Virus record (IMG/VR): IMGVR_UViG_3300021197_001230
Location: 1 to 32,115 of that record
DNA: 32,115 bases
Source: a virus
Strand: one strand, 5' to 3'
A program made the translations under genes and the position numbers. This document shows positions 1,511-28,795 of this stretch, piece by piece. Under the pieces are notes generated by a model. It was not told the origin of the DNA. It worked only from the letters and a program-made list of their open reading frames with translations, and searched no databases. The stretch's first letter is position 1; the number at the start of each line of letters is the position of its first letter.

Positions 1511-1519
1511 TTGGCTAGA

Positions 1520-4500
1520 TTAGACTGCGGCAATTGTGATTACTGCCGAATAGATAAAGACTGTCGTGGCTCCAGGCGTTACTTTGATGACTAGGGCGTT
1601 GTTCGCTGCTGAAGTCATGTCGGTGATGTCAATGGTACTAATGGTGTCGCCTGTTGTCGAGTTGGTCGTGGCTCCTGTTCCGATGTTGTAGTGCAGCACA
1701 TCTACTCCGTTCGACACCGTGCTGCTGGCGTTCACTTTTACGTGTGTGGCCTTGTAGCCCGTCGGGATTTCATTAAACGCGAAAATGCTGCCAGTGGATG
1801 AGTCGCATTGGGCGCCTAGAACATTTGCAGTGTCATCCTCGATTCGAATCTTGACAATAGCCCTTCCAACGTCGCCACCTACCCACTCGGTGGGGAGCAC
1901 CTTAATCTGGGTGGTGCTACCATGCCACCCTCCCCCGCCACCCGACGCCGCAGCAAAGGACAGATTTCCACTGCCATCGGTCTTTAGAAAGTGGCCCGCT
2001 GAACCGTCTGCGACCTCTGACATTATGCCTGCGTTGGTGATGGTAATTAGCCTGTCGCCCGTTACGCCTGTTCTTGTAGCGGTGCCACCAGTGCCGCCCG
2101 AAAAGAAATTGCCTACGTCGTCCCCCTGAATAACAACTGTATCGCTAACGGTGATTTGCGTGATGCCTGTCGCGTCGGCAGATAGAAATCCGACTTTAGT
2201 CAAGTTAGCCGCAGTAGTGAACTTGTTGGTACCACTAGCCGACACGTTATCTGCGTCAATGACAGTCCCTGTTACAGATATGCCCGTCACGTTGCCTGCT
2301 CCGTTGACCGTGATTGCGTCAGTGACATCTTTTACCGCATCTATGTCCGCGCTAGCAGTGACGGTGAGAAAGTTGATTTTGTTGACCTGCGCCTGCGATA
2401 CGAATTTGTTGGTGGTGCTGGTGGTGCTTACTTGGTCAGCAGTAAGTGGTTTTGCAGTGGCTGCGACCGTAAACCCGCTGATGCCTGCTGCAGTAGAAGT
2501 GATGTTGCCTACCGTTTCCTTGGTGTTGTCAAGGTCGTGCTGCTCGGTAATGTTTATGAGGTCAGTCTTGTTGTCTATGTCCGCAAGGGAACTCGCATGG
2601 CTTGCAAGCGTCAGGCCATTGCTTGCTATGTCCAGCAGTTGCTGCTGTGTCGCGAAATTCAGTGCCGTGGTGGTCAAAATCTTATCTGCCCTAATGACGG
2701 TGCCTTCAAGCGTCAGGCTTGTGATTGCGGTGGAACCAGCATTAAGACCAATCAAGTCGGTTTTGCCTTTGATAGCGTCTAAGTCGGTAGCACCCGAAAC
2801 CGTGATGTTATCGACCTTGCCTAGCTGCGTGTTGCTGGCGAACTGCAGCGCGGTGGTGGTACTTACCTTTCCTGCAGGTATCGGCTGAGCCGCACTGTCG
2901 AAGTTAATCGCGTCGATGCCGTCGTTAGTTACCGAAATCGCCTCAGTAACTGCGGTCATGGGCACACTCGGCACAGGGTTAGTCGGTCCAACGCCGTTCA
3001 CGAAGTCATCCAGCGCCGTGCCCACGACTGGCTCTGTCGGGCCTGGGCCTACAGGCATGGAGCAGGCGTTGCCATCCCAATTGTATCCGAAGTACTCGCA
3101 GCACTTCTTACTGCCTGCTAGTCCCGTGGATTTGGTAGCTGCGTTTGTGAAAGTAACAGTGCCGAAGTTAGACACCACTGGTTCGATGAACTCGCAAAGC
3201 TGAATGTTGCCTGCGACCATTATCAAAGTCAAGCGGCACGACTCCTCCGCATTGGCCGTGTAGTTATCTATGCTTAGAATCCTATATACCCCGTCCCGCA
3301 GCCGTATGCTCTGCGAGAAATCTAGCTGGTTGATGTCAGTGGGCGTAAGGAACGCGTTGCACTCCACAATCTTGCTTTCTGCAAAATACTGTTCTTGAAA
3401 ATAAGTGGCCCAATACTCATTGTACAGTGTGCGGCTGGGTTGCACGGCGTCATCTACAAAAACGTCAGGCCCAAACAGCAGGGCGGTGCTGGTGCTAGTG
3501 GAAGGCGAAGCCGAAAACGGTGAGAAAAACGCATATTGGCCCCTTGCAACGATATTGCCCGAGCGGTTTACTCTAAAGGATTGCGTGCGCGAAGCATCGG
3601 CCAAGTAGCACAGCATCGGCGGCTGATTGTCGATGATGTCCCCGTCGGTGTCGTAGGCGATGAAGGTGCGCAGACCTCCAACTGTATCCACCGCCACGTA
3701 TGCCGCGAACCCGTTCGAAATCTCTTCCGTTCCTGTGGACCAATCGTTATCGACGTCCACTATCCTCATCCTGCCCGCTGTCCTGTTGGCAGAATCTTGC
3801 AACGAAGCGTTTACATAGTCGTTGCCCTCTGCGTGTGCGAATTCATAGATGCGCGACTGTAAGTCAGTAGTGGGTCTGTGTACAAGCGGTTTGCTATAGT
3901 CTATCTTGGCATCCCAATCTAGCGTGGCACCCGTGCTAAGGTAGAGGCGCGCTGGTTCTATCTTGAATGTCTTGGTGCGCTCATCGGGCACGAACACCAA
4001 ATTGAAAGTCTTTTGGAGGCCTGCCAAAAAATCGATGCAGGTGGTGTCTGGCATGTTGGCAGCCACGTCCACATCGAAGAGATACGGGTCGCCCACACCA
4101 CCATCGAGGCCGTATGCTCTGCTTGGGTAGTTGCTTGTGTGTGCAAACCCTAGCTTCGTATTGCCACCAAAGCTGTTCAATCTTTTGACGAAGAATGTTA
4201 CTTCGTCGTTTGCATTTAGGTCTAATTCGAACAATTCCGTGCGCAACTGTGGCACGTACCACTGCGCGGGGCAGTATGTGGTACGGAACTCTGTGGCGAC
4301 GTTATTAACCTTGAGAATGATTTGTATTTGCCCCGACACGTCGGTGCGGTTCACCACCTGATTTCGCAGCCGCAATCGATACACGCGCCCATGGGGTGCC
4401 ACGAATTTGTGGTTGGCATCGTCCCACACTGAGTGCTCATCGTGGTCTGCAGAGCCATAGTCGGCGGCGGTGCTTGCGTATTTCAGCAGCACCTCCCCTG

Positions 4501-5338
4501 TGGTTGGTATGAGTTGCGCCGCATAGCTGTTGATGTTCAGCACTCCCTGAAAAGTACCGCCTGCTATTGTAGCATCGGTGTCTAACCCAGATGAAAAATT
4601 GGCAGGCACGTCGTCCTTGCAGATAAGGGAATACCTGCCTCCCCTAAATACTGGCATCCACACGTTTGCGCCGCCGCCTGAGTTGGCGAAGAAGGCGCTA
4701 GAATAGGAATAGCCAGCCAATGCGAAAATAGCGTCTAACACCTTTCGCACTTTAATGTATGGCACCAAGTGTGCCGCGTCGATTGGCTCTGTTTGGTAGT
4801 CCACACCCGTCGACCTCTTAAGCATCGGGCTGTAGCAGAACTCTCCTGAGTAAGTAGCCGAAATGCCAGTGCCCGTAATTGAGTTGTTTAGCAGATTGTT
4901 CAACTTCGTGTCACTGTCGAAATTGTGGTCAAGACCTGAGAAGTCTAGGTCTTCGAGGTTGTTGTTCCGCAGCGTGGCCGTCAAATCGCCAGTGTTGCCT
5001 ACAACCACGATTTCAAAGCTGACTGCCTTTCCTTTAGACTTTAGGATGCTGAGCAACTGCAAGCTACCCTGCAACACGGGCAATCCGTCGTCAGATATCC
5101 ATGCGTCGTATTTCCGCTTAGGGTTGAACGTAGACACCACCTCCCCCATGCCGTCGTAGTGGTCGAAAAAGTCGACGTTCTTGGGCGTTGCTGGGATTTG
5201 AAAATTCTGCGAAAACGCACCCACCGCTGAGTTGACCGCCTGCAAGTCCTGAAACCGCAAAGAGAGGCTGATAGGTTGCGATTCCATCAAGTCCAGGGCC
5301 ATGGTGGTTGTGCCCTTCAATACGTGTAGTGTCAACAT
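1520..5338 (-). CDS. Large tail tip / fibre protein with repeated stalk and C-terminal tip domain
   Basis: A 1272-residue virion protein, probably the tail tip with receptor-binding fibre. I start it at the ATG at 5338, which overlaps the preceding stop (ATGTTGA) and follows a purine-rich GAAGAAAG; the frame is open 12 codons further up. Roughly the first 730 residues look like a compact baseplate-type region. A cysteine-containing linker follows (SKKCCEYFGYNWDGNACSMP). Four to five repeats of about 45-80 residues then run over 2100-2888, each carrying a pattern like VSTTxxxxFxxxxQLxKI. After a GGGGGWHGS hinge (near base 1930) comes a 120-residue C-terminal domain beginning with TQIKVLPTEW, a style seen at the tips of marine phage fibres. 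It sits two genes before the tape measure. Host receptor and fold are unknown. Confidence 0.75.
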   Translation of the reverse strand: MLTLHVLKGTTTMALDLMESQPISLSLRFQDLQAVNSAVGAFSQNFQIPATPKNVDFFDHYDGMGEVVSTFNPKRKYDAWISDDGLPVLQGSLQLLSILKSKGKAVSFEIVVVGNTGDLTATLRNNNLEDLDFSGLDHNFDSDTKLNNLLNNSITGTGISATYSGEFCYSPMLKRSTGVDYQTEPIDAAHLVPYIKVRKVLDAIFALAGYSYSSAFFANSGGGANVWMPVFRGGRYSLICKDDVPANFSSGLDTDATIAGGTFQGVLNINSYAAQLIPTTGEVLLKYASTAADYGSADHDEHSVWDDANHKFVAPHGRVYRLRLRNQVVNRTDVSGQIQIILKVNNVATEFRTTYCPAQWYVPQLRTELFELDLNANDEVTFFVKRLNSFGGNTKLGFAHTSNYPSRAYGLDGGVGDPYLFDVDVAANMPDTTCIDFLAGLQKTFNLVFVPDERTKTFKIEPARLYLSTGATLDWDAKIDYSKPLVHRPTTDLQSRIYEFAHAEGNDYVNASLQDSANRTAGRMRIVDVDNDWSTGTEEISNGFAAYVAVDTVGGLRTFIAYDTDGDIIDNQPPMLCYLADASRTQSFRVNRSGNIVARGQYAFFSPFSASPSTSTSTALLFGPDVFVDDAVQPSRTLYNEYWATYFQEQYFAESKIVECNAFLTPTDINQLDFSQSIRLRDGVYRILSIDNYTANAEESCRLTLIMVAGNIQLCEFIEPVVSNFGTVTFTNAATKSTGLAGSKKCCEYFGYNWDGNACSMPVGPGPTEPVVGTALDDFVNGVGPTNPVPSVPMTAVTEAISVTNDGIDAINFDSAAQPIPAGKVSTTTALQFASNTQLGKVDNITVSGATDLDAIKGKTDLIGLNAGSTAITSLTLEGTVIRADKILTTTALNFATQQQLLDIASNGLTLASHASSLADIDNKTDLINITEQHDLDNTKETVGNITSTAAGISGFTVAATAKPLTADQVSTTSTTNKFVSQAQVNKINFLTVTASADIDAVKDVTDAITVNGAGNVTGISVTGTVIDADNVSASGTNKFTTAANLTKVGFLSADATGITQITVSDTVVIQGDDVGNFFSGGTGGTATRTGVTGDRLITITNAGIMSEVADGSAGHFLKTDGSGNLSFAAASGGGGGWHGSTTQIKVLPTEWVGGDVGRAIVKIRIEDDTANVLGAQCDSSTGSIFAFNEIPTGYKATHVKVNASSTVSNGVDVLHYNIGTGATTNSTTGDTISTIDITDMTSAANNALVIKVTPGATTVFIYSAVITIAAV
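2100..2888 (-). repeat. Degenerate protein repeats in the tail fibre stalk
   Basis: Within the tail tip gene, successive blocks begin with IPAGKVSTTTALQFASNTQL, IRADKILTTTALNFATQQQL, LTADQVSTTSTTNKFVSQAQ, IDADNVSASGTNKFTTAANL and a short last one, IQGDDVGNFF. Spacing is about 45-80 residues. The regular alternation of Thr/Ser-rich and Asp/Ile-rich parts suggests a trimeric beta-structured shaft (inference). Confidence 0.7.
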
Positions 5339-6540
5339 CTTTCTTCGAGAGATAGGGTCATGGACAAAGTGCAAGGCCGTAGCTTGCTGGTTCTTTGGAC
5401 GTTGTTATCAAAGTCGACCGAGTTAATCATCACAGGCTTAACATCTTCTCCTTTGGTCTTCATCCACGCCGCCCTGCTCCTCTGCAAGCTCGCTGCCAGT
5501 CGTACTTCGATGTCGGTCAGGTGCGTCTTGGTGACTTCGATTTCGGTGGTCACTTCGCGGCTGAAGCTTACTAAGTTGTGCCGATATTTATCTACCTTGG
5601 CCGAGGCGTCGAAGCCCCCCACTATGCCCTGCCTCTGCTCGTGTTCTACGTCCGATGTGGTTTTCAGTCTGCCGTCAAATAGCAGATAGTCCAAGCCGCC
5701 AAGTTCATTTAGCCAATAAACAGACACGTACGGGCTGCGCTGTTCGTGCTCGCCTATCTCGTTGATTGTCACCTTAAGTGTGCGCACGTCTGCAGGGCTT
5801 GCTATCCTGCCATAGAATGTGGCAGAAGCGCCCGTTATGTTCCACCTTGAGGCGCCCCAGCTCGCAGGGCCGTAATCTAAAACGTAAACGAAAGAGCCGT
5901 CTGTGAACGCCGAGTCTGCATTTGGCATAGAAGTCAAGTCCGCTACAGTGGCGCTGCCGCCTGTGTACGAAAATCTGTTGAGGTCGTCCCCCGTGAAGTC
6001 TTGCATCGGGATTACCACTGGGTATGGATGGTTCTCAGGCACCGACACGCTGAAATTTGCGGCCTCGTGCAAAGCCCGCACCGACAGGAATCCTGCCGCA
6101 GTGTCGATTTCAGGCGCGAACAAGTGCCTGTTGGCTACGATGCCTTCGCTCTGCTGCCCGTACCCTGCCACCACAAAGAAATCTACTGTGGTTTCAGAAC
6201 CTTGCACTGAGGCGGTGTAGTACTCTTGCACGCCCACCTGCACCTTCGCCCCCATCGACGGACACGCTGTGTCCCAGCGGTCCCATACCGACGTTCCATC
6301 GGCTGCTTCAAGCACTGGGTCGAGGTTGTTCTGCACGATGTCACTCAAGTCGGCCACGAGTCTGCCGCTAGCGTTTGGTCGAACGTACGTCTTAAACACC
6401 TCGGTGCCGTTCATGTCTACAGTTAACTGATAGCGGAACCCCGTTTGGCCTGTCTGGTCGCTTGAGAAGTCTACCAGCAAGTAGTCGCCCGCAAAGTATA
6501 ACGAGTTTGCCGTTGGTGCTTGGTTCGATGTTAGGCTCAT
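5332..6540 (-). CDS. Minor tail / baseplate protein, unknown family
   Basis: A 402-residue, beta-rich protein beginning MSLTSNQAPTANSLYFAG. The N-terminal 110 residues look like a beta-sandwich (DYLLVDFSSDQTGQTGFRYQ), and the C-terminal part contains RGLAAS-type charged segments. It starts with a four-base overlap with the gp10-like gene before it (6537-6540) and ends seven bases inside the tail tip gene, so the three genes form one translational block. By position between a tail completion protein and the fibre it could be a distal tail or baseplate hub component. I do not recognise a named family, and the functional part is inferred from context only. Confidence 0.72.
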   Translation of the reverse strand: MSLTSNQAPTANSLYFAGDYLLVDFSSDQTGQTGFRYQLTVDMNGTEVFKTYVRPNASGRLVADLSDIVQNNLDPVLEAADGTSVWDRWDTACPSMGAKVQVGVQEYYTASVQGSETTVDFFVVAGYGQQSEGIVANRHLFAPEIDTAAGFLSVRALHEAANFSVSVPENHPYPVVIPMQDFTGDDLNRFSYTGGSATVADLTSMPNADSAFTDGSFVYVLDYGPASWGASRWNITGASATFYGRIASPADVRTLKVTINEIGEHEQRSPYVSVYWLNELGGLDYLLFDGRLKTTSDVEHEQRQGIVGGFDASAKVDKYRHNLVSFSREVTTEIEVTKTHLTDIEVRLAASLQRSRAAWMKTKGEDVKPVMINSVDFDNNVQRTSKLRPCTLSMTLSLEERC

Positions 6541-7938: not shown

Positions 7939-8571
7939 TTAGCGCCCTTTCAATCGGCCATTTCTCCACTTCGTCCATGCGTGTTGCATCCTCGCCCGCC
8001 AAGATGTAAAACGTGTGATACCACCCATATTTACTGCCGAGTTCATTATTGCCGCCGCCGCCAAAGACCGCAGTATGCCGTTCCTGTAGGCTTCGTCGAT
8101 AACGTAAAAAAAAAGGAACGTCCCGCCTAGAACGTCCGCTGGCAAGGCTTTGAATGCCTCAGCATATATCGGTTTGTCGTACGGTTCAAGCTTCTTTCTG
8201 AATCTGTTGTCTATCGCCAGCGGGCGATACATCACTGAAAGAAACTCGTGGGCCATGGTGCTCAAATCGCTGCAAAAGAACTCTGCGTCTGCGTATTCTC
8301 CTGCAGTAAAGTCCTCCCAGCTTGGTATGAACACGAACCTTTTGCCCTCTAGCTTGAACTCGTGGTGCATCCTTCTTGGGCGCTGTGTCATCAGCGCGTT
8401 GCAGGCTTCGATAGCGACCGCGATGGCCTGAGCGCTGGCTTTGCGTAGCTCCTCGACTGGTGTGCCTGATACAGCAGCGACCAAGGACAAATCGTCCTCA
8501 GCCGCTTTTGCTTCCATCCACTGACCAACGCTTAATTGGCTCCAGTCTGTCGGGATTGTCAGTTTAGCCAA
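7939..8571 (-). CDS. Hypothetical protein; possible tail assembly protein
   Basis: A 210-residue protein starting MAKLTIPTDWSQLSVGQWME, a form (a strand, then W-x-x-L-x-x-x-Q) that recurs in phage proteins that count or chaperone tail components. The middle is helical (AQAIAVAIEACNALMTQ) and the C-terminus very basic (WRARMQHAWTKWRNGRLKGR). An in-frame run of nine adenines on the + strand at 8106-8114 encodes part of FLFFYV and does not shift the frame. It overlaps the previous gene by 13 bases and is followed by a 45-base gap. A tail assembly chaperone is one reading, but no frameshifted partner is seen. Confidence 0.65.
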   Translation of the reverse strand: MAKLTIPTDWSQLSVGQWMEAKAAEDDLSLVAAVSGTPVEELRKASAQAIAVAIEACNALMTQRPRRMHHEFKLEGKRFVFIPSWEDFTAGEYADAEFFCSDLSTMAHEFLSVMYRPLAIDNRFRKKLEPYDKPIYAEAFKALPADVLGGTFLFFYVIDEAYRNGILRSLAAAAIMNSAVNMGGITRFTSWRARMQHAWTKWRNGRLKGR

Positions 8572-8822
8572 GGCGTCCCGTTTTGCAGTGATTCCGTGAA
8601 ATCGTCGAACTGCCTCGGGGGCGTCCCAAGCGACTCGAATCTGGTATTGCTCCGTATTCTTGGGTCGTCATCTTCATAGAAATAGATTTCGTCGCAGAAC
8701 TGGTAATTGTGCTTCTCCATGTATTCGGGCAAAAGCGAATGCAGTTCTTCCCTGCTTTCGACTTTCATCCACACGGTGGCAGTACAATCGTACTTCGTGA
8801 AAAAAACGCACTGGAATATCAT
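8559..8822 (-). CDS. Hypothetical 87-residue protein downstream of datZ
   Basis: A small protein (MIFQCVFFTKYDCTATVWMK) with an alternating strand pattern, then a helix (REELHSLLPEYMEKH), and an acidic patch (FYEDDDPRIRS). It starts with an ATGA overlap on the datZ stop, so it is translationally coupled to the Z cassette. I do not recognise it. Its position may mean either a minor role in nucleotide metabolism or simply the first gene of the tail block. Confidence 0.65.
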   Translation of the reverse strand: MIFQCVFFTKYDCTATVWMKVESREELHSLLPEYMEKHNYQFCDEIYFYEDDDPRIRSNTRFESLGTPPRQFDDFTESLQNGTPWLN

Positions 8823-9418
8823 GATTGTAAGAGTTTAGCCCAAAATCTCATGCCTTCAGATTCCACTCCGCTGCGAATGCCATCGTAGCCTTCCACTTCG
8901 TCGTAGATAGCCACTTCCACCGCTGCTTGAAGCTTGTCCCTTTTTTCCTCGCTGATTTCCATCTTGGCTACGCGCTCAAATAGGAGGGACGTCAGGCTGC
9001 TTAAAACCGCCAACACCGCCCTATTCCCGCATGTCAGCTCTTCGGTCAGCTTTAGCACGCCTTCCAGTAGGTCGGCCACTTTAAGGATTTCATGCATCTT
9101 GGCGTCCACCGCACCTGTGTGCACGTCAAAGCGCCGTCGCATTATGTCGTCCTCGTACTCGCCAATGGCGCTCTTGTTGCTAATCGCACTTTTTACTGGT
9201 GATGGCAGGTCTCCCGTTTCGACTTCGGGCAAGTCGTGTTGCAAGCACTGCACCAGCAACTCGCCTATATCGCCGTCGTAGTCAATGATTTGGGCGATGT
9301 CGTATGCGTACATCGCTACCAAGGCCGTGTGCTCCAGCACGTTTTGCTGGCGGGTGAGTCGGACGATGCTCCAACGCGGAACACCGCCTAGCGTTCTGTA
9401 AAATCTATTCAGTTTCAT
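8819..9418 (-). CDS. datZ: DatZ: HD-domain dATP triphosphohydrolase
   Basis: A 199-residue HD phosphohydrolase that, in Z-genome phages, strips triphosphate from dATP so that the polymerase meets little adenine nucleotide. Metal ligands are visible as His30 (NVLEHTALVA), His61-Asp62 (QHDLPEVETGDLPSPVK) and Asp116 (KVADLLEG). Trp16 and Ile18 lie 14 and 12 residues before His30. From memory, this is the same spacing as Trp20 and Ile22 to His34 in cyanophage S-2L DatZ, where they help reject the 2-amino group. The fold is also that of the 5'-deoxynucleotidase YfbR, the main alternative, but linkage to purZ and a mazZ-like gene favours DatZ. The ATG overlaps the mazZ stop by 14 bases. Confidence 0.87.
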   Translation of the reverse strand: MKLNRFYRTLGGVPRWSIVRLTRQQNVLEHTALVAMYAYDIAQIIDYDGDIGELLVQCLQHDLPEVETGDLPSPVKSAISNKSAIGEYEDDIMRRRFDVHTGAVDAKMHEILKVADLLEGVLKLTEELTCGNRAVLAVLSSLTSLLFERVAKMEISEEKRDKLQAAVEVAIYDEVEGYDGIRSGVESEGMRFWAKLLQS

Positions 9419-9752
9419 CTATATCGTTTTGTCGGTTGTCATTTGCGTACATTCTATCGTCGAAGATTTTGTACTTATCGTGTCGCTCGAAATAAAGCAA
9501 GAACATGGCGTTGCAGGCCACGTGGGCAAGGTGGTGAAGGCCACTCTCCGAATCAGTCTGCGTGCCGCACTCAAAGGCGTGGAGGTGTCGCTTAAGGCTG
9601 TCCAGTGTGGTCGTGTATTCTTGGCCTTTGAACCAGTTATCACGCCCGTACTTTTTGGCGCCCATTTGAGCGACTTCGGCCACATCTTTGCAGAATTCGG
9701 GGTCTACTAGGCTCATTCTGATTTTGCCTCTATTGTGTCTATTAGCTGCCAT
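9405..9752 (-). CDS. mazZ: MazZ-like dATP/dGTP diphosphohydrolase
   Basis: A 115-residue protein matching, by motif, the phage dATP/dGTP diphosphohydrolase family (formerly DUF5664): GAKKYGRDNWFKGQ at 31-44, RHLHAF at 55-60, Asp67/Glu69 (GTQTDSESG) and LHHLAHVACNAMFLL at 72-86. The acidic and His residues would bind metal and the triphosphate. In the Z pathway, MazZ converts dGTP to dGMP, the substrate of PurZ, and may also act on dATP. I chose the ATG at 9752, which overlaps the purZ stop by 11 bases; the open frame extends 21 codons further into purZ but lacks family features. The family differs from the MazG-HisE form in S-2L, so the exact nucleotide preference needs assay. Confidence 0.84.
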   Translation of the reverse strand: MAANRHNRGKIRMSLVDPEFCKDVAEVAQMGAKKYGRDNWFKGQEYTTTLDSLKRHLHAFECGTQTDSESGLHHLAHVACNAMFLLYFERHDKYKIFDDRMYANDNRQNDIDETE

Positions 9753-10845
9753 GGTGGAACTGGAAATCGTCATGGTTCGGCCCCCACGTAGTACCACCGA
9801 GTTGCGCCCCCGCATTTTCGATATCCTTTTTCATGTCTTGGATTTCAGGGTGGTCCATGCCTTCCGTGTCTTCGCCATTTTGCAGCGTAACGTAGTCGCA
9901 AAAGGTCAGGATGACTTTAAGCTTTGACGGCATATTGGCCTCGATGGCCTCTGACACCTGCGTGCGGCTCCAAGAGAACACGCGCCGTGGCAACTTGGTA
10001 ACGGTCGTTTTCTCGGTTTCCTGCCCGAGGCTGTCGAACGTCGTTTCGTATTGGTCTTCGTAGTGTGGCCCGCTCCATCCTGTCATCACTCCGTCGGCAA
10101 ACCTATTCGCCACTCGAATCGGGTACGTCCTCGCACACCCAAAGACGGTGGTGATTGCATCGGGCGACACAAGGCAGTCGCTACACAGTTGAGCGATGGT
10201 GCACTCTCTGCTGGTGGTGAAGGGGTAGAAACCAGTGTGGACGCCCAAGCTGTATCCTTGCGCTCCTTCAAGCAGAATAGTCTTGCCTTCCCTTAGGATT
10301 TCTTTGTATTCGGCGTGTTTAACCACCCTGACTTCGACGCTCCCGCACTCGGTGCCGCCTATCATTCCATGCGGATAGTATTGTCCTGCCGTTACAGACT
10401 TTTGCGGGTCCCGCGTGATTTTTGCCATTATCGCCGCGCCGCTGCCCTTTTGGGTGCTGCCGATGCTTTTGATGTTGTCCCTTTCGAACTGGCTGTATTC
10501 GGGCTTGAGGATAGTGGCGTTCTCGTGCACCGCAATGCAGACTCCTTGCTTCATGTATCCAGCGGCGACTGCCTCTGACGCTTCGCGCAACAGAGCCTTG
10601 ACGTCGAGGACCGAGGCGGGAGCTATGAGCACCCACTTAAGACTTGGACTTACACAAGCGTTTGCCAACGCCGTATGCACCATCTTGTGCTTGTTGGCTG
10701 AAATGTACGTGTGCCCAGCGTTCGGCATCCACGCCGTTACTGCCACATCGTACTTCTTAAGTCTTGACATGAAGCCTGCGACAGCCCCCTTTCCAGTAGA
10801 CCCGAACTGCAGGTCTAGAATCGCATCGATTTCTCGATTTTCCAT
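9742..10845 (-). CDS. purZ: PurZ: phage adenylosuccinate synthetase-like enzyme making N6-succino-2-aminoadenylate
   Basis: A 367-residue relative of PurA that in Z-genome phages joins aspartate to dGMP using ATP or dATP, giving dSMP, which host PurB turns into dZMP. The loop GSTGKG at 15-20 has Ser16 where PurA has its catalytic Asp (GDEGKG), the hallmark of PurZ. Other family motifs are in order: NAGHT (42-46), GSTQKGSGA (129-137), EGAQGYSLG (193-201), PFTTSRECT (208-216), GCARTYPIRV (236-245) and KLPRRVFSWS (284-293). At 367 residues it is shorter than bacterial PurA (about 430), as is usual for PurZ. The start at 10845 follows a promoter and a 33-base A/T leader; the upstream open frame is only leader sequence. 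It heads the cassette with mazZ and datZ. Confidence 0.94.
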   Translation of the reverse strand: MENREIDAILDLQFGSTGKGAVAGFMSRLKKYDVAVTAWMPNAGHTYISANKHKMVHTALANACVSPSLKWVLIAPASVLDVKALLREASEAVAAGYMKQGVCIAVHENATILKPEYSQFERDNIKSIGSTQKGSGAAIMAKITRDPQKSVTAGQYYPHGMIGGTECGSVEVRVVKHAEYKEILREGKTILLEGAQGYSLGVHTGFYPFTTSRECTIAQLCSDCLVSPDAITTVFGCARTYPIRVANRFADGVMTGWSGPHYEDQYETTFDSLGQETEKTTVTKLPRRVFSWSRTQVSEAIEANMPSKLKVILTFCDYVTLQNGEDTEGMDHPEIQDMKKDIENAGAQLGGTTWGPNHDDFQFHHGS

Positions 10846-10878: not shown

Positions 10879-10918
10879 AAAACACAAAAATACGAAAAAG
10901 CTGTTAATCGCACAAGTC
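10879..10918 (-). promoter_or_regulatory. Bacteroidota-type promoter for purZ
   Basis: Read on the minus strand, CTTG (10913-10916) and TATTTTTG (10885-10892) are separated by 20 bases, fitting the Bacteroidota consensus TTTG-N19-21-TAnnTTTG. The eight bases GACTTGTG and the eleven bases CGTATTTTTGT recur at identical spacing in the early promoter near 18.7 kb. The predicted start lies about 33 bases before the purZ ATG. It sits in the 73-base gap right after the terminase stop. Confidence 0.75.
10900..10907. promoter_or_regulatory. Possible operator half-site GCTGTTAA in purZ promoter spacer
   Basis: The + strand GCTGTTAA lies between the two promoter elements and equals one half of the 12-base palindrome GCTGTTAACAGC found upstream of the early promoter (18746-18757). 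A shared regulator is plausible but unproven. Confidence 0.4.
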
Positions 10919-12085
10919 CTAGCCCAGTGCGTATGACCCATAGTTGGGATTTCTTTCATTCCACATAACGACATACCTCACCGCATCTAGCAAGTGGTCT
11001 ACTCCAACTGGCTTGTTCATTGGTTGGTCATTTTTGTCTAGACCCCAGCGATAGCTTCTCAATTCCTTGATGCCGTTTGCACTGCCGCTCAAGATGCTCA
11101 GCGGCTTACTCCGCAACATATCGATACCCGCGCGTACGCTGTCTGCCCCCTTCCTTGCTGGATGGATGTTGAAGCCCATGCCGTGGATTTGGTCTATCGA
11201 TTTTGGTTCTGCGGCGTCGGCTATGATTCTGTCATGCCTTCCTATCCCTGCCTCCCTCATCTCTCTGCCGATGTCGCTGTTGGTCATTTTGGTGGAGTAG
11301 AAAACTTCGTCAATGACGTATCCGCCGTCTGCTTCGTATACTGCCACCAGCGCGCTAGGGTCGACGCTGTAACCGAAGTCCAGGCCGTACGCTACCAACT
11401 TGGCTTCTGCTGGCAAGACAGGAATCTCTTTGTAGTGGCTGTACACGATGTTGCTCAGTGTCGCCCTTTCCCCTAGGCCGTACACCCTCCAGTAGTCGGG
11501 GTCTGCTTCTCTTAGGCGTTCGATTTCCGCCACGATGCTCGCGCCAAGGAACGGGTTGTCGGCATAAGTCGTCTGCCGAAATGTCGCGTCTTCCCTTGGT
11601 ATCACTTCTTCGTATATCCAGTGGTACGCATCTGACGGGTTAAAATCGATTATCACTTTCTCGGTGGTCCGCAGTGTCAACTGCAACCAGTCTTCGCGGC
11701 TGCACTCGTTCGCCTCATTTATGAAAAGGACATCGCGCTTCCTTCCTCGCACTTTCTGCGGACTGTCGCAAGACACGAACTCGATAAGGTTGTTATTCAG
11801 CTTGTATTCTAGATTCGTGCGATTGTGGAAGTCCACGTTGTACAGCCCAGCAGCATCTAGTATGCTCATGAAATCGCGCATCGCCGTAGCCCTCAAACTA
11901 GGACTGGTCTTTCGCACGATTGTAACCACCTTACCCGTGTGACGCAAGCAATACCCATATATCAGCCACGTGAGGATGTTATAAGTCTTACCACTCCGCG
12001 TGCCGCCCTGTTCTACCAAGATGCGCGTTTCGCAGTTGTCGCAGTGCGAATAAACGACGTTAGTCTGTACTCTTAATGACTTCAA
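10919..12085 (-). CDS. terL: Terminase large subunit (PBSX-type, Terminase_3)
   Basis: A 388-residue DNA packaging motor with an N-terminal ATPase and a C-terminal nuclease. The Walker A motif is GGTRSGKT at 27-34, and the Walker B-like strand is VLFINEANE at about 119-127, with Asn-Glu at its end. A coupling-type motif (IIDFNPSD) follows. The nuclease domain opens with LVAYGLDFGYSVDPSAL near 237-253, includes IIADAAEPKSI, and ends with VDHLLDAVRYVV, supplying acidic metal ligands. The gene overlaps the small subunit by 26 bases. It is the last gene before the purZ promoter. Unusually, the portal is not adjacent but lies far downstream on the circular map. Confidence 0.95.
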   Translation of the reverse strand: MKSLRVQTNVVYSHCDNCETRILVEQGGTRSGKTYNILTWLIYGYCLRHTGKVVTIVRKTSPSLRATAMRDFMSILDAAGLYNVDFHNRTNLEYKLNNNLIEFVSCDSPQKVRGRKRDVLFINEANECSREDWLQLTLRTTEKVIIDFNPSDAYHWIYEEVIPREDATFRQTTYADNPFLGASIVAEIERLREADPDYWRVYGLGERATLSNIVYSHYKEIPVLPAEAKLVAYGLDFGYSVDPSALVAVYEADGGYVIDEVFYSTKMTNSDIGREMREAGIGRHDRIIADAAEPKSIDQIHGMGFNIHPARKGADSVRAGIDMLRSKPLSILSGSANGIKELRSYRWGLDKNDQPMNKPVGVDHLLDAVRYVVMWNERNPNYGSYALG

Positions 12086-14128: not shown

Positions 14129-14570
14129 CTGCTGCGATATTTAGTAAGTCCTCTTGCGTCAAAGATAAAAACTCCTTGTCTGGGCGCTGCGACAACCTGT
14201 CGCCCTGGGGCAAGTCCATGGTGTGGCGGCGTTCTCTCACATCACAAGCAGTGGTGCCGTCGTATTCTAGCAGAGCCTTGAGAATGTCTGGCGTCTTGAG
14301 GCGCCCATATGTTTCGATGTCGCCCCTTTCGAACTTGCGAAACACCAATTCCACCTCCTCGACCGTCAGGGCTGGCACTGCGGCCAAGATTTCTTCTACG
14401 CAATCGATGTACTCTTCGGTGGTGGTGAAGCGCCTAGTGCAGTCCACCCTATCAGACATCTGCATCAACCTGCCGAGGAAATATACTCGGAACTCCTTGG
14501 TTTTGCAAGCAGTGACTAGATTAGTGCCTTCTGCTTGGGCCTGTAGCGGTTGGAGTGCCATTTTAGGCAT
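14091..14570 (-). CDS. Hypothetical replication-associated protein
   Basis: A 159-residue protein starting MPKMALQPLQAQAEG. I start it at 14570, which overlaps the preceding stop by eight bases; an open frame reaches 31 codons further but lies inside the replication gene. The segment VEEVELVFRKFERGDIETYG with TPDILKALLEYDGTTACDV resembles a small helical domain seen after replication initiator genes in Bacteroidota phages. A helicase loader or initiator partner role is possible from position between the winged-helix protein and NinG. No ATPase motif is visible. Confidence 0.68.
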   Translation of the reverse strand: MPKMALQPLQAQAEGTNLVTACKTKEFRVYFLGRLMQMSDRVDCTRRFTTTEEYIDCVEEILAAVPALTVEEVELVFRKFERGDIETYGRLKTPDILKALLEYDGTTACDVRERRHTMDLPQGDRLSQRPDKEFLSLTQEDLLNIAAVGKQKTNPNQEN

Positions 14571-15228
14571 CGCTATTAAGCCACGAATCAAGGGCTTGAA
14601 GGTCTGGGGTAGCGTTTCCGCGAGTTCTACTCTTTTGTTTGGGGAATATGCCTTGATATCCATTAGCTATTGCATCTTTAATTGCGGTCATGGCCCATGC
14701 CATGTCGCCGCTGGTTTCTTGGTGTAACTTGTGTAGGGCTGCTTGTTCGCCTCGTGGTGTGTACTTTTTGATTTTCTTCAGTCGGCGTTCGTCTTTCCAA
14801 ACGCTCCACAAATCACGAAATTCTTGTGATTCCCAAGGAAACACCAATTCACTAGTTTGTTCTTTAGTTTTTTCATTTAGTTTTTTCTTCGGCAACGGCT
14901 TCCTATCAGGTCGGCTTCCCTTGCCTGCTGGCGCGGCAGCGTTTGCCGTATAGGTCGGCAGCAATGACCGCATGAAGCGTTTCCTTCCGTCGAATCCACA
15001 TCTTTCCAAAAGCCCTTCGTCCACTAGCCTGTTGATGCCTGTGCGCACACTCCTTTCACTTACCCCGACGAAATCTGCCAAGTATCGGTCGCTGAAAAAG
15101 CAATCTGCGCCGCGTTTGGTGAAGCTGTCAACTTCCATTATAATAATTTTGTCGTACCACTTGAGGGTGGGGTGAGTCCAAATCTCCCTTGGTATCCAAA
15201 TTCCTTTCCAGTCGCGTTCGGTGTTCAT
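14563..15228 (-). CDS. Winged-helix replication initiator-like protein
   Basis: A 221-residue protein with an N-terminal helix-turn-helix of the replisome-organiser type. GIWIPREIWTHPTLKWYDKI is a conserved opening, and RYLADFVGVSERSVRTGINR at about 48-67 is the recognition helix region, followed by LVDEGLLERCGFDGR as the wing. A basic linker (PDRKPLPKKKLNEKTKEQ) leads to a C-terminal helical domain, a layout like phage initiators that bind the origin and recruit host helicase. The N-terminus is clearly genuine although it overlaps the preceding gene by 101 bases. With no polymerase or helicase in the genome, this is the best candidate replication initiator. Confidence 0.8.
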   Translation of the reverse strand: MNTERDWKGIWIPREIWTHPTLKWYDKIIIMEVDSFTKRGADCFFSDRYLADFVGVSERSVRTGINRLVDEGLLERCGFDGRKRFMRSLLPTYTANAAAPAGKGSRPDRKPLPKKKLNEKTKEQTSELVFPWESQEFRDLWSVWKDERRLKKIKKYTPRGEQAALHKLHQETSGDMAWAMTAIKDAIANGYQGIFPKQKSRTRGNATPDLQALDSWLNSDA

Positions 15229-15403: not shown

Positions 15404-15624
15404 GTGCGTATGTCCTTTTCTGCTTCAGTAACAGCTAGCACCAACATCCACAAAGAGTTGTCGTAGCCAAGGCCGTCTAGCATGATTTTCAGTTCAGGGC
15501 TGTACTTGAGAAAGCCCCTGGGATGCGTGCGCATCCAATGTCTTATGGTCGCTGGCGACACCCCCAACGCTTTCGCGATGTTGGGGATGCCTCCGAGCAT
15601 ACCAATTAGGCCTAGTAGCTTCAT
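15400..15624 (-). CDS. Small helix-turn-helix DNA-binding protein
   Basis: A 74-residue protein whose segment MLGGIPNIAKALGVSPATIR HWM is a helix-turn-helix (about residues 9-31). The rest is helical (MLDGLGYDNSLWMLVLAVTE). I start it at 15624, in an ATGA overlap with the previous stop; the longer frame upstream is the shadow of that gene. It is a candidate early regulator and could bind the palindromic sites near the promoters, but this is inference only. Confidence 0.7.
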   Translation of the reverse strand: MKLLGLIGMLGGIPNIAKALGVSPATIRHWMRTHPRGFLKYSPELKIMLDGLGYDNSLWMLVLAVTEAEKDIRT

Positions 15625-16058
15625 CCCTTGATGATTGCTTCTTTCACCTCCAGCAACCGAGTAGCGAAGTGCTTCACGTCGTCCCAGTAATCGGGGCCAG
15701 TCTGGTAATTGACGACTTCTGTCGCCCTGCCTAGTGCCCACTGCGTGCTGATTTCTTGTTGACGTCCACCGCTGGCGGCTGGAGTGCCCGATGGCAGCAA
15801 CACCGTGCCTTGGTTTTCCATCATCTCCTTCTTGATTTTCAGTTTCAAGCCATACGCAGACACCCGCGATTCGTAAAAGACTTCATCACCCACGGCATAC
15901 GGTGGACTCTGTGGGTCTGTGCTGCTGGCTTGCCCGCTGATTTCTTCGCCTGATTCCTTGTCAGTCAGTCCTACGGTGTAGTCGTGGAATGTGCCACCGT
16001 TGCGGCTGGTCCAGCTGTTGTTCTCGTTCTCGATTGAAGTAATAGTACCTGTTCTCAT
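15621..16058 (-). CDS. Possible OB-fold single-stranded DNA-binding protein
   Basis: A 145-residue protein whose first 75 residues alternate strands in an OB-like order (MRTGTITSIENENNSWTSR, TFHDYTVGLTDKESGEEISG, VGDEVFYESRV, GLKLKIKKEM). A flexible Gly/Ser-rich linker and a C-terminal helical part (STQWALGRATEVVNY and ATRLLEVKEAIIKG) follow. This layout occurs in phage single-strand binding or annealing proteins placed near replication initiators. No acidic tail typical of SSB is seen. The start is in an ATGA overlap with the gene before it. The assignment is tentative. Confidence 0.62.
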   Translation of the reverse strand: MRTGTITSIENENNSWTSRNGGTFHDYTVGLTDKESGEEISGQASSTDPQSPPYAVGDEVFYESRVSAYGLKLKIKKEMMENQGTVLLPSGTPAASGGRQQEISTQWALGRATEVVNYQTGPDYWDDVKHFATRLLEVKEAIIKG

Positions 16059-16264
16059 AAAATAATGTTTTGAATGTATTCGTTAATTGGTTGGCACTGC
16101 ACTTTGTCTAAGTTCAGCGTCGTTGCGTCGTTTGGTTCGTGTGCGACATACACGGCAGTCAAGTCGTCGTCGGTGTTTCCAACGATTACCCATGGAAAAT
16201 CTGCCGCCAGCATCTGAAGATACTCGGGGCTGGTGGCTTGTCGATAGTCCAGTTCTTTAATCAT
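16055..16264 (-). CDS. Hypothetical 69-residue early protein
   Basis: A small acidic protein (MIKELDYRQATSPEYLQMLA) with a strand pair (WVIVGNTDDDLTAVYVA) that suggests a compact alpha/beta fold. It is coupled on both sides by short overlaps (8 bases upstream, 4 downstream). No family or function recognised. Small early phage proteins of this size often modify host functions, but nothing here shows which. Confidence 0.6.
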   Translation of the reverse strand: MIKELDYRQATSPEYLQMLAADFPWVIVGNTDDDLTAVYVAHEPNDATTLNLDKVQCQPINEYIQNIIL

Positions 16265-16532
16265 GTCCGTACTTTTGGGGGTCGTAGTCGAATTGCATGG
16301 CGTTCAGCCTCTCTTTGCTGTCGTTAACCACGTCGAGCGCTTGTGCCACTTCTTCTAGCGAGAGTAGGATGTTGCGGGCTGCGTCGATGTTAGGCAAGTC
16401 GCTAACCGCTATGCGGTCCAAGTAGTGCTTCATTCGATTTAGATATGCCTCCATGCGATTGCAGTCTTTTTGCAATTCGTTCCAATCGTGTGGAAGAAGG
16501 CTGTGCGTGGGTTTAGTCCCAGATAATGTCAT
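16257..16532 (-). CDS. Hypothetical 91-residue helical early protein
   Basis: Almost wholly helical, with a heptad-like central part (WNELQKDCNRMEAYLNRMKH, then LSLEEVAQALDVVNDSKERL). It overlaps the gene before it by 20 bases and the next by eight. Function unknown. Confidence 0.6.
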   Translation of the reverse strand: MTLSGTKPTHSLLPHDWNELQKDCNRMEAYLNRMKHYLDRIAVSDLPNIDAARNILLSLEEVAQALDVVNDSKERLNAMQFDYDPQKYGHD

Positions 16533-16758
16533 GACCAGTTAGCTTGCCGTTGGTGATAAATACGTTTCCGAAATCGTTGTTGAACTGCTTAAACATATCC
16601 AGCCATGCACTTTTCAAATCGTTGCCATGTCCCATGCGGGTCTGGCGCTGCACTTGGCCGTCCGTGTCAAAGTCAATCACTGCAGACAGCTGATACTTCG
16701 TCGTGTGTGTCGGCGTCTGCATCATTCGTACAGCGCCTGTTACTCGTCCTCTATTCAT
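16513..16758 (-). CDS. Hypothetical 81-residue early protein
   Basis: Starts MNRGRVTGAVRMMQTPTHTT at 16758, in an ATGA overlap with the preceding stop; the open frame upstream is Lys/Arg-rich shadow sequence of that gene. The protein has strands (YQLSAVIDFDTDGQVQRQTR), then a helix (SAWLDMFKQFNNDFG) and a final strand (NVFITNGKLTGHDIIWD), suggesting a small alpha/beta domain. No family recognised. Confidence 0.6.
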   Translation of the reverse strand: MNRGRVTGAVRMMQTPTHTTKYQLSAVIDFDTDGQVQRQTRMGHGNDLKSAWLDMFKQFNNDFGNVFITNGKLTGHDIIWD

Positions 16759-17048: not shown

Positions 17049-17050
17049 GA

Positions 17051-17527: not shown

Positions 17528-17682
17528 CTTTGCTTTGGGGTATTAAAATATTCGGGAAATGTAATTTCGAGTCGGAACTTGTTGCCACCATCGGCGGCCT
17601 TCCACGTTTCGTAAAGTCTGGTGGCAAAGCTGCCTAGACGACCAGATTCTAACTGCGTGTGTACGTGTGTTGTCGTGTCCAT
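17524..17682 (-). CDS. Small 52-residue early protein
   Basis: A short gene filling a 154-base space. It begins MDTTTHVHTQLESGRLG, continues SFATRLYETWKAADGG and ends EITFPEYFNTPKQR. The ATG shares its first base with the previous stop (TAATG at 17682), and its own TGA overlaps the next start (ATGA at 17524-17527). This exact fit supports translation. It has no recognised family. Confidence 0.65.
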   Translation of the reverse strand: MDTTTHVHTQLESGRLGSFATRLYETWKAADGGNKFRLEITFPEYFNTPKQR

Positions 17683-18032: not shown

Positions 18033-18049
18033 TGTAAGTAAGTTAATTA

Positions 18050-18691: not shown

Positions 18692-18730
18692 ATTTTTACA
18701 AAAATACGACACAAAGTGTCCCCCCACAAG
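18692..18730 (-). promoter_or_regulatory. Bacteroidota-type early promoter
   Basis: On the minus strand, CTTG (18727-18730) and TATTTTTG (18699-18706) are 20 bases apart, matching the TTTG/TAnnTTTG consensus. The flanks GACTTGTG and CGTATTTTTGT are identical to those at the purZ promoter. It lies in the largest intergenic region (123 bp) and would transcribe 18651 downwards. Confidence 0.75.
18708..18720. promoter_or_regulatory. Inverted repeat in early promoter spacer, possible operator
   Basis: GACAC-AAA-GTGTC is a perfect five-base inverted repeat lying between the two promoter elements, where a bound protein would block polymerase. It is not present in the purZ promoter, so control of the two may differ. 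Confidence 0.45.
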
Positions 18731-18745
18731 TCGAGAACGTTAAAG

Positions 18746-24453: not shown

Positions 24454-25024
24454 TGGAAAGAGGGAATATAGCGTTGTAATAGTTGCGAAGGTCGCGCAAG
24501 TTCGTTCTGCCCGAGATAGTCATGCCACTTTGGTAGTATGCGCTAGTTTCTGCTGGCATCTCCTCCTCGGTGGCCTTGGTGTACTCAGGGTAGAGATTCT
24601 GATTAAATAGCAAGTAGTCTATCATTCTCGTGGTGTAGAAGGCAGCATTTCCTCGTGCTCGTTCGATGTGCTTCGACATCTGCGCGGGGTCGAGTGCCTC
24701 CGAGCCTTCGGGCGCCCTCGTGAGCAAGCCACCAGCATCTATGTAGGTGTGCAGGTCTGGCAGCAATTCCACCACTGTCCACCACACCACCACCCTGCGG
24801 CAGTGTGTGTCTAACAGCAGTGTTTCGTTGGCGCTTGGAGAGGAGCCTGATAGAACCGCCAAGAGGCGGTCGTACAGTCTGGTGCCCAAGTAGGGCTGCA
24901 GATGCTTGTCTTGCGCAAGGATAATCGCGGGCACGATGCGGTCGTCATCTACCGCAAGGTTCACTTGCGTGATGCGGCGAACGTATTCGGGCGAAGCGAA
25001 CAGATGTATCTTTGGTATTGCCAT
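24437..25024 (-). CDS. Head-tail connector protein (DUF6712-like)
   Basis: A 195-residue protein typical of Bacteroidota phages, beginning MAIPKIHLFASPEYVRRITQ. The core VDDDRIVPAIILAQDKHLQP with YLGTRLYDRLLAVL matches the helical connector fold (gp6/gp15-like, DUF6712 as I recall). The C-terminus includes GRTNLRDLRNYYN. It would form the ring under the portal. It follows the portal gene directly (shared base 25024), as expected for a connector. Confidence comes from the core motif plus position. Confidence 0.8.
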   Translation of the reverse strand: MAIPKIHLFASPEYVRRITQVNLAVDDDRIVPAIILAQDKHLQPYLGTRLYDRLLAVLSGSSPSANETLLLDTHCRRVVVWWTVVELLPDLHTYIDAGGLLTRAPEGSEALDPAQMSKHIERARGNAAFYTTRMIDYLLFNQNLYPEYTKATEEEMPAETSAYYQSGMTISGRTNLRDLRNYYNAIFPLSNGSGS

Positions 25025-26658
25025 CAGAAGTTAGTCATTCCCATATCCCTTGGCGCGATTCCGACTTCTCTCTGTTCGTCGGCGATTTCGTTGGCGCGGC
25101 GCTCTTGGGCGTCTAGGTCGTTTAACAATGAACGCAGGTTGGAGTCGCTAATCTTGCGGCCAGTGCGCTTAAGATAAGTGCGACGTGTCCAAAAGTGGTA
25201 GCAATTAACACCTCCTTTGTGTAGCCAGATGTCGTGGCCCGAGGACATTTCTGCGATGGAGCCTCGCGCCTGTTCGATGTCTTCGCGCTTAAAGACTTTG
25301 TTTGCGCGCTTCATCAGTACGCAAAACTCGCGGCTATTGTCCTTTGGGTTGTCGCCGTCGTAAATGTATCGCACCTTGAACAGGGGCGTGTCGAATGTGC
25401 TGCCACCAGCGCTGTCAGGCACGATTTTCGCGAACTTCGTCAAGATGTCGCGCTTGTCTTCGAGTTCGTAGTCTACTGGTCTTTCGTCTACTAGTTCGTA
25501 TTCGCTTTCATCGACCTCTTCGCCTTTAGACAACAGCCACTCCAAATCGTATTTTGGTGTCGCTGAGTACTTCTGCTTCTCTTCCTTCGGCAAGAAGGGG
25601 CTAGCGCTTTCCATGCGAACGTCGCTAGGCATTCCTGCGTCGGACAGCAGGCGCTTGAAGGTGTTACACAACAACATCCGCGCTGGAGCTACCACCTGAC
25701 GGTCGAACAATTGACTCGCGATTTGCAGCTCCTCGGTATTGCCCAGCTCTCCAGCGGTTTTGACTCCAAACATCGCAGGACTCACCACGCGGTGGCCCAC
25801 CATGATTTTATCAGTCGTTTCGGTGCTTAGGAACTCGAACTGTTTGTCTGCGTCTGAAAGCGGAAACGGCTCGAAGTCTGGCTTGCGGTCGGGGTCGTCG
25901 CTGTAAGTGATAATGAACTTGCCCGCGTTTTGCGACCCTGACATCTGCATCTCGATGTCGCGGCGGATACGCTCCCTTTCCTCAATGGCTGGCTGTCCGT
26001 TCTTGAAAGCGATGTGGAACGAGGGGCTGAGTCCGTTCCTGATATTGTTGATGTGGAACTCGCTGATGCTCTTTTCCAATTCGACATAGTTGACAGAGCC
26101 GATGTAGTCGGGTTTGGGGTAGTACTGGCTCCCTACACTAAACGGTCGCACCACGAGTACCTGCAGGGGGTGCTCCTCTTTGTCGTCGACGTGAAACGAA
26201 CGAATCTTCTGCGGTGTGTGGTCAGGGTGGTGCGCTTCTTCCCAGTTCGTGCTGTAGTAATAGTGCCGCACACGCTCGTCGATGTCTTGCAGCCCGCTGC
26301 GCAGATTCTCGAAGGGTAGGTGGCGAACGTTGCTGATGGTAGAGCGGTCTAGGGACCATCTGACCTCCAAAGCAAACCCGCCTTGTATCTTAAGGTCGAG
26401 CGCGCATTTTGGCAGTTCCTCGCCAGAGTTCCATTCGGAAAGCTTTGTAATCACAGAGGTATTGGCGCTCAACAGGCCAGTACCCGCGAACATCTGCGCA
26501 ATGGTGTTGCACAGGGCGCCGTGTGTGGCGCTGCTGTTGTAAAGGCCGACTAGGTACTGCGGATAGAGGTTGTCTTCTCCGTATTGCACATACCCATCGG
26601 GCAATTCGTACTCTTCGTAAGAACGCTCGACATACTTGGCCAGATTTAGTAGTTCCAT
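25024..26658 (-). CDS. Portal protein
   Basis: A 544-residue portal, the dodecameric ring through which DNA enters and leaves the capsid. Family features include the N-terminal YGEDNLYPQYLVGLYNSSAT, a hub with SQYYPKPDYIGSVNYVELEK and ISEFHINNIRNGLSPSFHI, and the stem/crown part SQLFDRQVVAPARMLLCNTF. The C-terminal 110 residues (FKVRYIYDGDN, FCVLMKRANKVFKREDIEQA and the GGVNCYHFWTRRTYLKR motif) form an extra domain frequent in Bacteroidota phage portals. The ATG shares a base with the previous stop (TAATG). Unusually it lies after the capsid and tail tube genes and far from terminase. Confidence 0.9.
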   Translation of the reverse strand: MELLNLAKYVERSYEEYELPDGYVQYGEDNLYPQYLVGLYNSSATHGALCNTIAQMFAGTGLLSANTSVITKLSEWNSGEELPKCALDLKIQGGFALEVRWSLDRSTISNVRHLPFENLRSGLQDIDERVRHYYYSTNWEEAHHPDHTPQKIRSFHVDDKEEHPLQVLVVRPFSVGSQYYPKPDYIGSVNYVELEKSISEFHINNIRNGLSPSFHIAFKNGQPAIEERERIRRDIEMQMSGSQNAGKFIITYSDDPDRKPDFEPFPLSDADKQFEFLSTETTDKIMVGHRVVSPAMFGVKTAGELGNTEELQIASQLFDRQVVAPARMLLCNTFKRLLSDAGMPSDVRMESASPFLPKEEKQKYSATPKYDLEWLLSKGEEVDESEYELVDERPVDYELEDKRDILTKFAKIVPDSAGGSTFDTPLFKVRYIYDGDNPKDNSREFCVLMKRANKVFKREDIEQARGSIAEMSSGHDIWLHKGGVNCYHFWTRRTYLKRTGRKISDSNLRSLLNDLDAQERRANEIADEQREVGIAPRDMGMTNF

Positions 26659-27775: not shown

Positions 27776-28795
27776 TTATGTGGTAGCGTAACGTGAAACC
27801 AAAGAGCAGTCGCCTGCAACTCCGACCTGAGTACCACCAGTGAAGCGGTAAGCGATACGAACGTTGTCAGAACCGTCTTGGCCTGTCATGTCGATGAACA
27901 CTGCGCTGTTGTGGTCGCTCTTCAAATCTGTGCCGAAGAACAAGTTGTCGGGGCGTGCTGCCACTACTGCGTCGTTTGACATCCCTGGGCAAACGTGGAG
28001 TTGGTATCCCAAGTAGTTGTTGTTGATGTCAGTAGCGTAGTTAAACCCTGGGTGAGTTCCTGCAGACACCAACTTGCGGTAGTAGATGTAGTAAGACTTA
28101 GGACTCATGTAAATCTTCACTTCTTGGTCGCCCTGCAAAGCAGAGGGCAAAGCGTCGATGCACGTGTCCAAGTTCGTCAAGATGTTGCTAGTAGAGAACA
28201 CGGCGCCTGAGCCTTCGCCCTGTGTGTTAGAGCCGCCATCAGAGATGCGCTGCAACAATCCTGTGAAGTGGTTGTTATCAAACGTGTCAGTCAAGCTATC
28301 GCCAACAACAGCACCTGAATCACTACCGTCTGCGGCTGCGGAAACCAAGTCGTTGGTAGAACCTCCTGCAGAGTCCCACGTGCCACCTTTCCACACGTTG
28401 TCCTCCATGGACTCGCCAATCTTAGATGCGACGTGGAGCAGAAGGTACTGCTGGAACTCGGGTGGGAGCTGGTCGTTAATGAAGCCACGGCCAGTGTTGA
28501 GTGCTTCCCAGTCAGCGCGGAAATCCTTCTTGCATAGCTGCAAGTTAGACATCAGCTCGGTGGGTTCGAGCACGACCTCCGAAAGGTCAATAACTCCAGC
28601 AGGCGTGAAATCACAAGCGGCTGCTTGTACGATGCCAGCGGTGTCCAGCTTGCGCAGCACCTCGCGGTATTTAACGTTTTCCTTAACGGTAACGCGGCCC
28701 TCGCCGATGGTCGGCGCGGACTTAATTGCAGCAGCGATATACGGGCGAGCGAGTTCGCCAGCATACGTTTTGCTATTTGAGAGTGTAGTTGCCAT
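27776..28795 (-). CDS. Major capsid protein (HK97 fold)
   Basis: A 339-residue capsid protein. Features seen are an N-terminal arm (LSNSKTYAGELARPYIAAAI), an acidic-Cys segment (VQAAACDFTPAGVIDLSEVV) and CKKDFRADWEALNTGRGFIN. The P-domain helix is rich in QQYLLLHVASKIGESMEDN. The A-domain part includes EVKIYMSPKSYYIYYRKLVS and NNNYLGYQLHVCPGM. This order (scaffold, capsid, then a structural gene) is the common phage order. It lies six bases after the scaffold stop and ten before the tube gene, with expression presumably high. The four cysteines could permit cross-links, though none is shown. Confidence 0.92.
   Translation of the reverse strand: MATTLSNSKTYAGELARPYIAAAIKSAPTIGEGRVTVKENVKYREVLRKLDTAGIVQAAACDFTPAGVIDLSEVVLEPTELMSNLQLCKKDFRADWEALNTGRGFINDQLPPEFQQYLLLHVASKIGESMEDNVWKGGTWDSAGGSTNDLVSAAADGSDSGAVVGDSLTDTFDNNHFTGLLQRISDGGSNTQGEGSGAVFSTSNILTNLDTCIDALPSALQGDQEVKIYMSPKSYYIYYRKLVSAGTHPGFNYATDINNNYLGYQLHVCPGMSNDAVVAARPDNLFFGTDLKSDHNSAVFIDMTGQDGSDNVRIAYRFTGGTQVGVAGDCSLVSRYATT

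Follow-up and report, generated by a model that had tools for sequence, protein, structure and literature searches.

We propose that three overlapping genes in a metagenomic virus record (IMGVR_UViG_3300021197_001230) work together as a cassette for 2-aminoadenine (Z) and that the phage which carries them is a Bacteroidota phage; we put the probability of this at about 80%. The window that we analyzed is the whole record, 32,115 bp. The genes lie at 8819..10845 on the minus strand: purZ (9742..10845), which encodes a predicted succino-2-amino-deoxyadenylate synthase of 367 amino acids; a stand-alone DUF5664 gene (PF18909; 9405..9752) in the mazZ slot, for a predicted dNTP pyrophosphohydrolase; and datZ (8819..9418), for a predicted HD-domain dATP triphosphohydrolase. 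The overlap is 11 nt between purZ and the DUF5664 gene and 14 nt between the latter and datZ, and the three are one operon. An initial annotation had reported three adjacent, overlapping genes at these positions, which we confirmed. It had also described the cassette as complete and its middle gene as mazZ-like, and there we differ: the mazZ slot holds only a DUF5664 domain, without the MazG/DUF550 part, and the Z-selective polymerase DpoZ is absent. Judging from the sequences, what is most likely new here is that a MazG-type MazZ and DpoZ are both missing, and that the phage lineage is of Bacteroidota type.

We favor a working Z cassette because of PurZ's model score, its serine in place of a catalytic aspartate, and the position of its clade among phage PurZ; because of the conserved residues of DatZ (including Q29 and I22), the known order of purZ, mazZ slot, and datZ, and the conservation of the block; and because the DUF5664 protein of phage Wayne is active (PMC12884076) and the trio of phage S-2L puts Z into the DNA of E. 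coli (PMC8342488). Counting against it are the lack of a MazG-type MazZ and of DpoZ, the best PDB match of DatZ (YfbR), and two residues of PurZ (Thr314 and Asp317) that are unlike those of other PurZ.

The ends of the record (1-652 and 31464-32115) overlap over 652 bp at 97% identity (17 mismatches), and joining them gives a single tape-measure-like ORF of 841 amino acids across the join. Also, another contig (G007, about 88-95% identical DNA) spans 15439-32115 and 1-6217 unbroken, through the join. The mismatches look like strain variation. The genome is therefore about 31.46 kb and essentially complete, with a circular map. Given the end overlap, the ORF across the join, and the continuity of G007, it is unlikely that the record is a fragment and that DpoZ lies on a missing piece. 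Every gene is on the minus strand, the G+C content is 51.5%, and intergenic sequence makes up 1.4% of the record. We also noticed about seven small ORFs (roughly 100-140 amino acids; 19760-22640, minus strand) of similar, coiled-coil-like composition. Some of these are missing or divergent in the near-identical G007, and they are perhaps a tandem family. Between the capsid-like gene and a protease gene is a very acidic protein, rich in Glu/Asp repeats and likely scaffold-like (28801-29490, minus strand), with imperfect DNA repeats at 29057-29241.

On the curated NCBI model for PurZ (NF038379), the product of purZ scores 322 bits, above the cut-off of 300; on PurA models, which require 368 bits or more, it reaches no more than 104 bits. 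It matches PHROG 1211 (phrog_1211, E = 3e-77), and the nearest solved structures are the PurZ of phages phiVC8 and S-2L (PDB 6fm1/7odx). In the alignment, its GSTGKG lies opposite the GDEGKG of E. coli PurA, so that a serine (Ser16) replaces the catalytic aspartate of PurA, as the initial annotation had noted. The TTVT loop and the majority of residues in the dGMP pocket, as known from S-2L, are also retained (PMC8342488). In a quick tree of 77 PurZ and PurZ0 sequences, whose inner branches are partly open, the protein is nested among phage PurZ rather than PurZ0. It forms a clade of five (SH-aLRT 97) with proteins from four metagenomic loci (L019, L020, L022, and L024), and this clade falls within a larger group that holds phages SH-Ab 15497 and PMBT28. 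On the model scores and the tree, we reject PurA as the identity of 9742..10845. Our analysis supports that it is a true PurZ, and its use of dGMP is predicted.

The product of datZ matches models for YfbR and HD proteins and the PHROG family "dATP triphosphohydrolase" (phrog_7076, E = 1e-23). The residues with which S-2L DatZ binds metal and substrate are conserved in it (R15, W16, I18, Q25, H30, H61, and D62, and further E65, G69, D70, P74, K76, K113, and D116; S-2L residues per PMC8065100), which bears out the original reading of an HD-domain DatZ. The base-pocket residues W20, I22, and P79 (S-2L numbering) are present, as are the HD metal ligands and the phosphate ligands. The Q29 and I22 of S-2L are E and L in E. 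coli YfbR; the window DatZ keeps Q and I. In S-2L DatZ, I22 confers the rejection of the 2-amino group (PMC8065100). A32, which is reported to be strictly conserved among close DatZ homologues, is a leucine in the window's clade. The best PDB match by phmmer is YfbR, not DatZ. In the DatZ tree, the window DatZ takes a basal position with weak support. Overall, these comparisons support a DatZ-type HD protein and a predicted dATP triphosphohydrolase. As an aside, in Rhodoferax phage P26218 (L217:1431-3016) a DatZ-like HD protein adjoins thymidylate synthase, and no purZ is annotated in the vicinity.

The middle gene matches PF18909 (DUF5664, E = 1e-29), and we found no MazG-like domain in it (PF04447, PF03819, or MazZ-2). 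DUF550 (PF04447) occurs in S-2L, SH-Ab 15497, and locus L023 but not in the window or its close relatives. Among the isolate PurZ phages that we examined, the mazZ slot takes several forms. In SH-Ab 15497, DUF5664 is fused N-terminally to the MazG-like DUF550 (also in VLCpiS6a, PMBT28, and Kokobel2); in S-2L, BUCT555, and Bm1, the MazG-like domain stands by itself; and in phiVC8-type phages the slot holds MazZ-2 (PMC8342488). An AlphaFold model of the window protein is all-alpha (pLDDT 87). Among viral proteins, it is best matched by other members of DUF5664, the diphosphohydrolase of SH-Ab 15497 among them; a fold search of the PDB gave nothing significant, with S-2L MazZ among the weak matches. 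The DUF5664 tree is compatible with a DUF5664-2 that has lost DUF550 or with a separate recruitment.

By family, then, the sequence of the window DUF5664 protein indicates that it is not MazZ. It plausibly does the job of MazZ, because the stand-alone DUF5664 of Arthrobacter phage Wayne hydrolyzes dATP, dUTP, and dGTP, with a roughly tenfold higher kcat for dATP than for dGTP (PMC12884076). Like the window, Wayne has DUF5664 without DUF550 directly after a gene of the PurZ family. Unlike the window, it is a PurZ0 phage with DmtZ-DutZ, DNA polymerase I, and no DatZ, and its protein (DUF5664-1) groups elsewhere in the DUF5664 tree.

The activities of the three enzymes are extrapolated from characterized relatives. 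On this basis, DatZ would strip dATP to deoxyadenosine, and the stand-alone DUF5664 would provide dGMP by cutting dGTP (and also dATP) down to the monophosphate. PurZ would join dGMP to aspartate, and host enzymes would complete dZTP. With dATP depleted, the replicative polymerase of the host would incorporate Z opposite T.

The order of purZ, mazZ slot, and datZ is the same in the window, SH-Ab 15497, S-2L, and phiVC8. SH-Ab 15497 and PMBT28 (PurZ 43-45%, DUF5664 domain 37%, and DatZ 26-29% identical) have two things that the window lacks: the MazG-like domain DUF550 and, beside the cluster, a family-A polymerase. S-2L resembles the window in lacking DpoZ, in its compact overlapping trio next to terL, and in the active site of DatZ. 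It differs in that its MazZ is of the MazG type and that it has a PrimPol of its own, and its PurZ is only about 40% identical.

A scan of viral contigs with the single PurZ sequence found no matches, and an alignment-based scan found 371 relatives. We kept 80 PurZ loci from viral contigs and searched them with DUF550/MazZ-2 and polymerase models that were built from isolates. There was a family-A polymerase near purZ in 70 of the 80 loci and DUF550 or MazZ-2 in 68. The window's clade (L019, L020/L021, L022, and L024) has the layout terL-purZ-DUF5664-datZ, without DUF550/MazZ-2 and without a family-A polymerase, and this block is common to four distinct metagenomic relatives. The E-values and the recurrence of the same three-gene block in these lineages exclude a chance trio. 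Seven other loci lacked a match to DUF550/MazZ-2. In L025, L028, L070, and L095, purZ and datZ are separated by a small ORF that looks like MazG on visual inspection; the one that was tested had no match in Pfam. L037 (8962-10249), L073 (4402-5611), and L094 (8923-10228) have no MazG-type gene beside purZ or datZ and carry a stand-alone DUF5664 two genes past datZ, so DUF5664 may have taken over from MazZ more than once.

Some loci from the survey deserve mention in their own right. A contig that was binned as Verrucomicrobia (L099:4340-6268, an assignment by binning alone) has the order polA-purZ-DUF550-datZ, which hints at a further host phylum. Also, L101 (9269-13615) and L102 (9174-13665) contain a PurZ-like gene with GSTGKG in a bacterial chromosomal context, at 206-209 bits (below the PurZ cut-off). 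It lies between the genes for cytidylate kinase and ribosomal protein S1, and L102 adds a Ham1/RdgB-type purine NTP pyrophosphatase before S1. We found no other PF00709 protein in these two genomes, which are perhaps not complete, and the PurZ-like protein is possibly a cellular homologue of PurZ.

The cluster behaves as a unit that is gained or lost between terL (10919..12073, PF04466, minus strand), which is directly upstream of purZ, and the next conserved gene (7939..8571, minus strand), because there is a clean empty site in relatives without the cluster and because the block is kept within the clade. G001, at 29.2 kb, is co-linear with the window, with identities of 70% for the capsid and 57% each for the portal and terL, and it has the cluster (PurZ 55%, DUF5664 64%, and DatZ 56% identity). 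In G009 and G012 (terL 51-52% and portal 46-47% identity), terL is directly followed by the homologue of 7939..8571. Among the 80 best terL relatives listed, which are a sample with many short loci, purZ was beside terL in one (L161, on the same contig as L020).

We did not find the family-A polymerase domain of DpoZ (PF00476) in the window or the records of its clade, of which G002, G004, and G006 are fragments and give weaker evidence. Nor did we find PF07733 or PF00136, from other polymerase families, in the window, G001, or G003; together, these three models cover families A, B, and C. By phmmer there was no homologue of S-2L PrimPol in the window, G001, G003, or G004. PF09250 (PrimPol) did not match the window, but it did not match the S-2L control either. 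The only clear replication gene in the window is an O-like initiator (14563..15228, minus strand; phrog_270/678, HTH_36). With no detectable phage DNA polymerase, Z-DNA would have to be written by a polymerase of the host, probably that of its replisome.

We infer that Z is present in the virion DNA. Its full replacement of A is beyond the evidence and cannot be assumed, because DpoZ is absent. Indeed, the cassette could be active but leaky, giving a mixture of A and Z in the phage DNA that is perhaps enough against restriction enzymes. We consider this a serious contender, at somewhat less than even odds. It would fit with the apparent lack of a family A, B, or C polymerase or an S-2L-type PrimPol, and when the S-2L trio alone was placed in E. 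coli, Z entered only part of the DNA (PMC8342488). On the other hand, S-2L's PrimPol makes no distinction between A and Z, and yet S-2L DNA is without A because DatZ removes dATP (PMC8065100).

Several observations point to a Bacteroidota host for the phage with this putative cassette. The portal protein (25024..26658, minus strand; phrog_33693), the capsid-like protein (27776..28795, minus strand), and a tail protein matched 19, 5, and 2 phage-isolate records, respectively, and all of these are Bacteroidota phages, so the Bacteroidota-type structural backbone that had been recognized earlier stands. The best terL matches listed are from Bacteroides and Flavobacterium phages, and terL also matches many others. 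Shine-Dalgarno matches are missing from 48 of 55 genes, and from 29 of 34 in Nonlabens phage P12024S, which contrasts with SH-Ab 15497, PMBT28, and phiVC8 (1/24 without a match in phiVC8); S-2L also mostly lacks them (8/11), so scarcity alone is not specific to Bacteroidota. Finally, the 73-bp gap before purZ contains a promoter-like element, GACTTGTG...TATTTTTG (10885..10918, minus strand; TTG-N20-TAnnTTTG), and TTG-N20-TATTTTTG fits the Bacteroidota -33/-7 consensus TTTG/TAnnTTTG (PMC6847099, PMC9723704). A second copy with the same 20-bp spacing is in the largest intergenic gap (18699..18732, minus strand). By count, such promoters are not significantly enriched across the window, and the information lies solely in where the two copies sit and how alike they are.

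It is unlikely that the host lies outside Bacteroidota and that the phage has only distant structural genes in common with Bacteroidota phages. The G+C content of 51.5% and the low identity to isolates could suggest this: the Nonlabens phages P12024S/L (Inhavirus, Flavobacteriaceae host) share the portal at 30% and the capsid at 24%. In contrast, the portal, capsid, and tail match Bacteroidota phages only, there are hardly any Shine-Dalgarno sites, and purZ is preceded by a -33/-7 element of Bacteroidota type. P12024S/L are also like the window in having a metallophosphatase gene and few Shine-Dalgarno sites. They differ in their primase, helicase, and recombination genes, and they were not among the PurZ matches as tallied. 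More broadly, our PurZ search of phage isolates had no Bacteroidota phage in its tallies or among the matches listed.

The donor-nucleotide site of the window PurZ is unusual. It has LTFCDY where nearly all PurZ have LNFxNY, and in place of the Asn or Gln at the ATP-binding position (phiVC8 N297, S-2L Q308) it has Asp317, as do PurA and PurZ0 (and also L029 and L030). This residue aligns with Asp333 of E. coli PurA (counted without Met), which sets the preference of PurA for GTP. So, judging from Thr314 and Asp317, the window PurZ may accept GTP as the donor. One sentence in PMC12884076 assigns ATP preference to PurZ0 and GTP preference to PurZ, which contradicts its own introduction and the work on S-2L and phiVC8; we set that sentence aside. 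The departure at Asp317 is a feature of the site and not of PurZ's defining reaction. It is very improbable that this protein serves host-like purine synthesis as PurA does, beside two ordinary nucleotide-pool enzymes in a phage with normal DNA: Thr314/Asp317 match the PurA donor-site motif, and many phages that lack PurZ have PF18909 and YfbR-like genes, but the catalytic Asp is Ser, the PurA models score far below their cut-offs, and the trio is kept as a block in the order of Z clusters.

Returning to the Z cassette, we tentatively suggest, as a possibility that falls a little short of an even chance, that it is a minimal, portable module of about 2 kb that works without a Z-selective polymerase or a MazG-type MazZ. 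A lone DUF5664 would feed PurZ, DatZ would clear dATP, the Bacteroidota replisome would write Z, and the PurZ donor may have switched towards GTP (Thr314/Asp317).

If our proposal is correct, then Z-DNA would extend beyond the host phyla that are named in a 2026 survey of Z-phages (Pseudomonadota, Cyanobacteriota, and Actinomycetota; PMC12884076), and a whole phage lineage would manage without DpoZ or a MazG-type MazZ. This would open a direct question: whether depletion of dATP alone lets an ordinary replicative polymerase copy a genome with Z. The sister phages, with their clean empty site, offer a natural comparison with and without the cluster.
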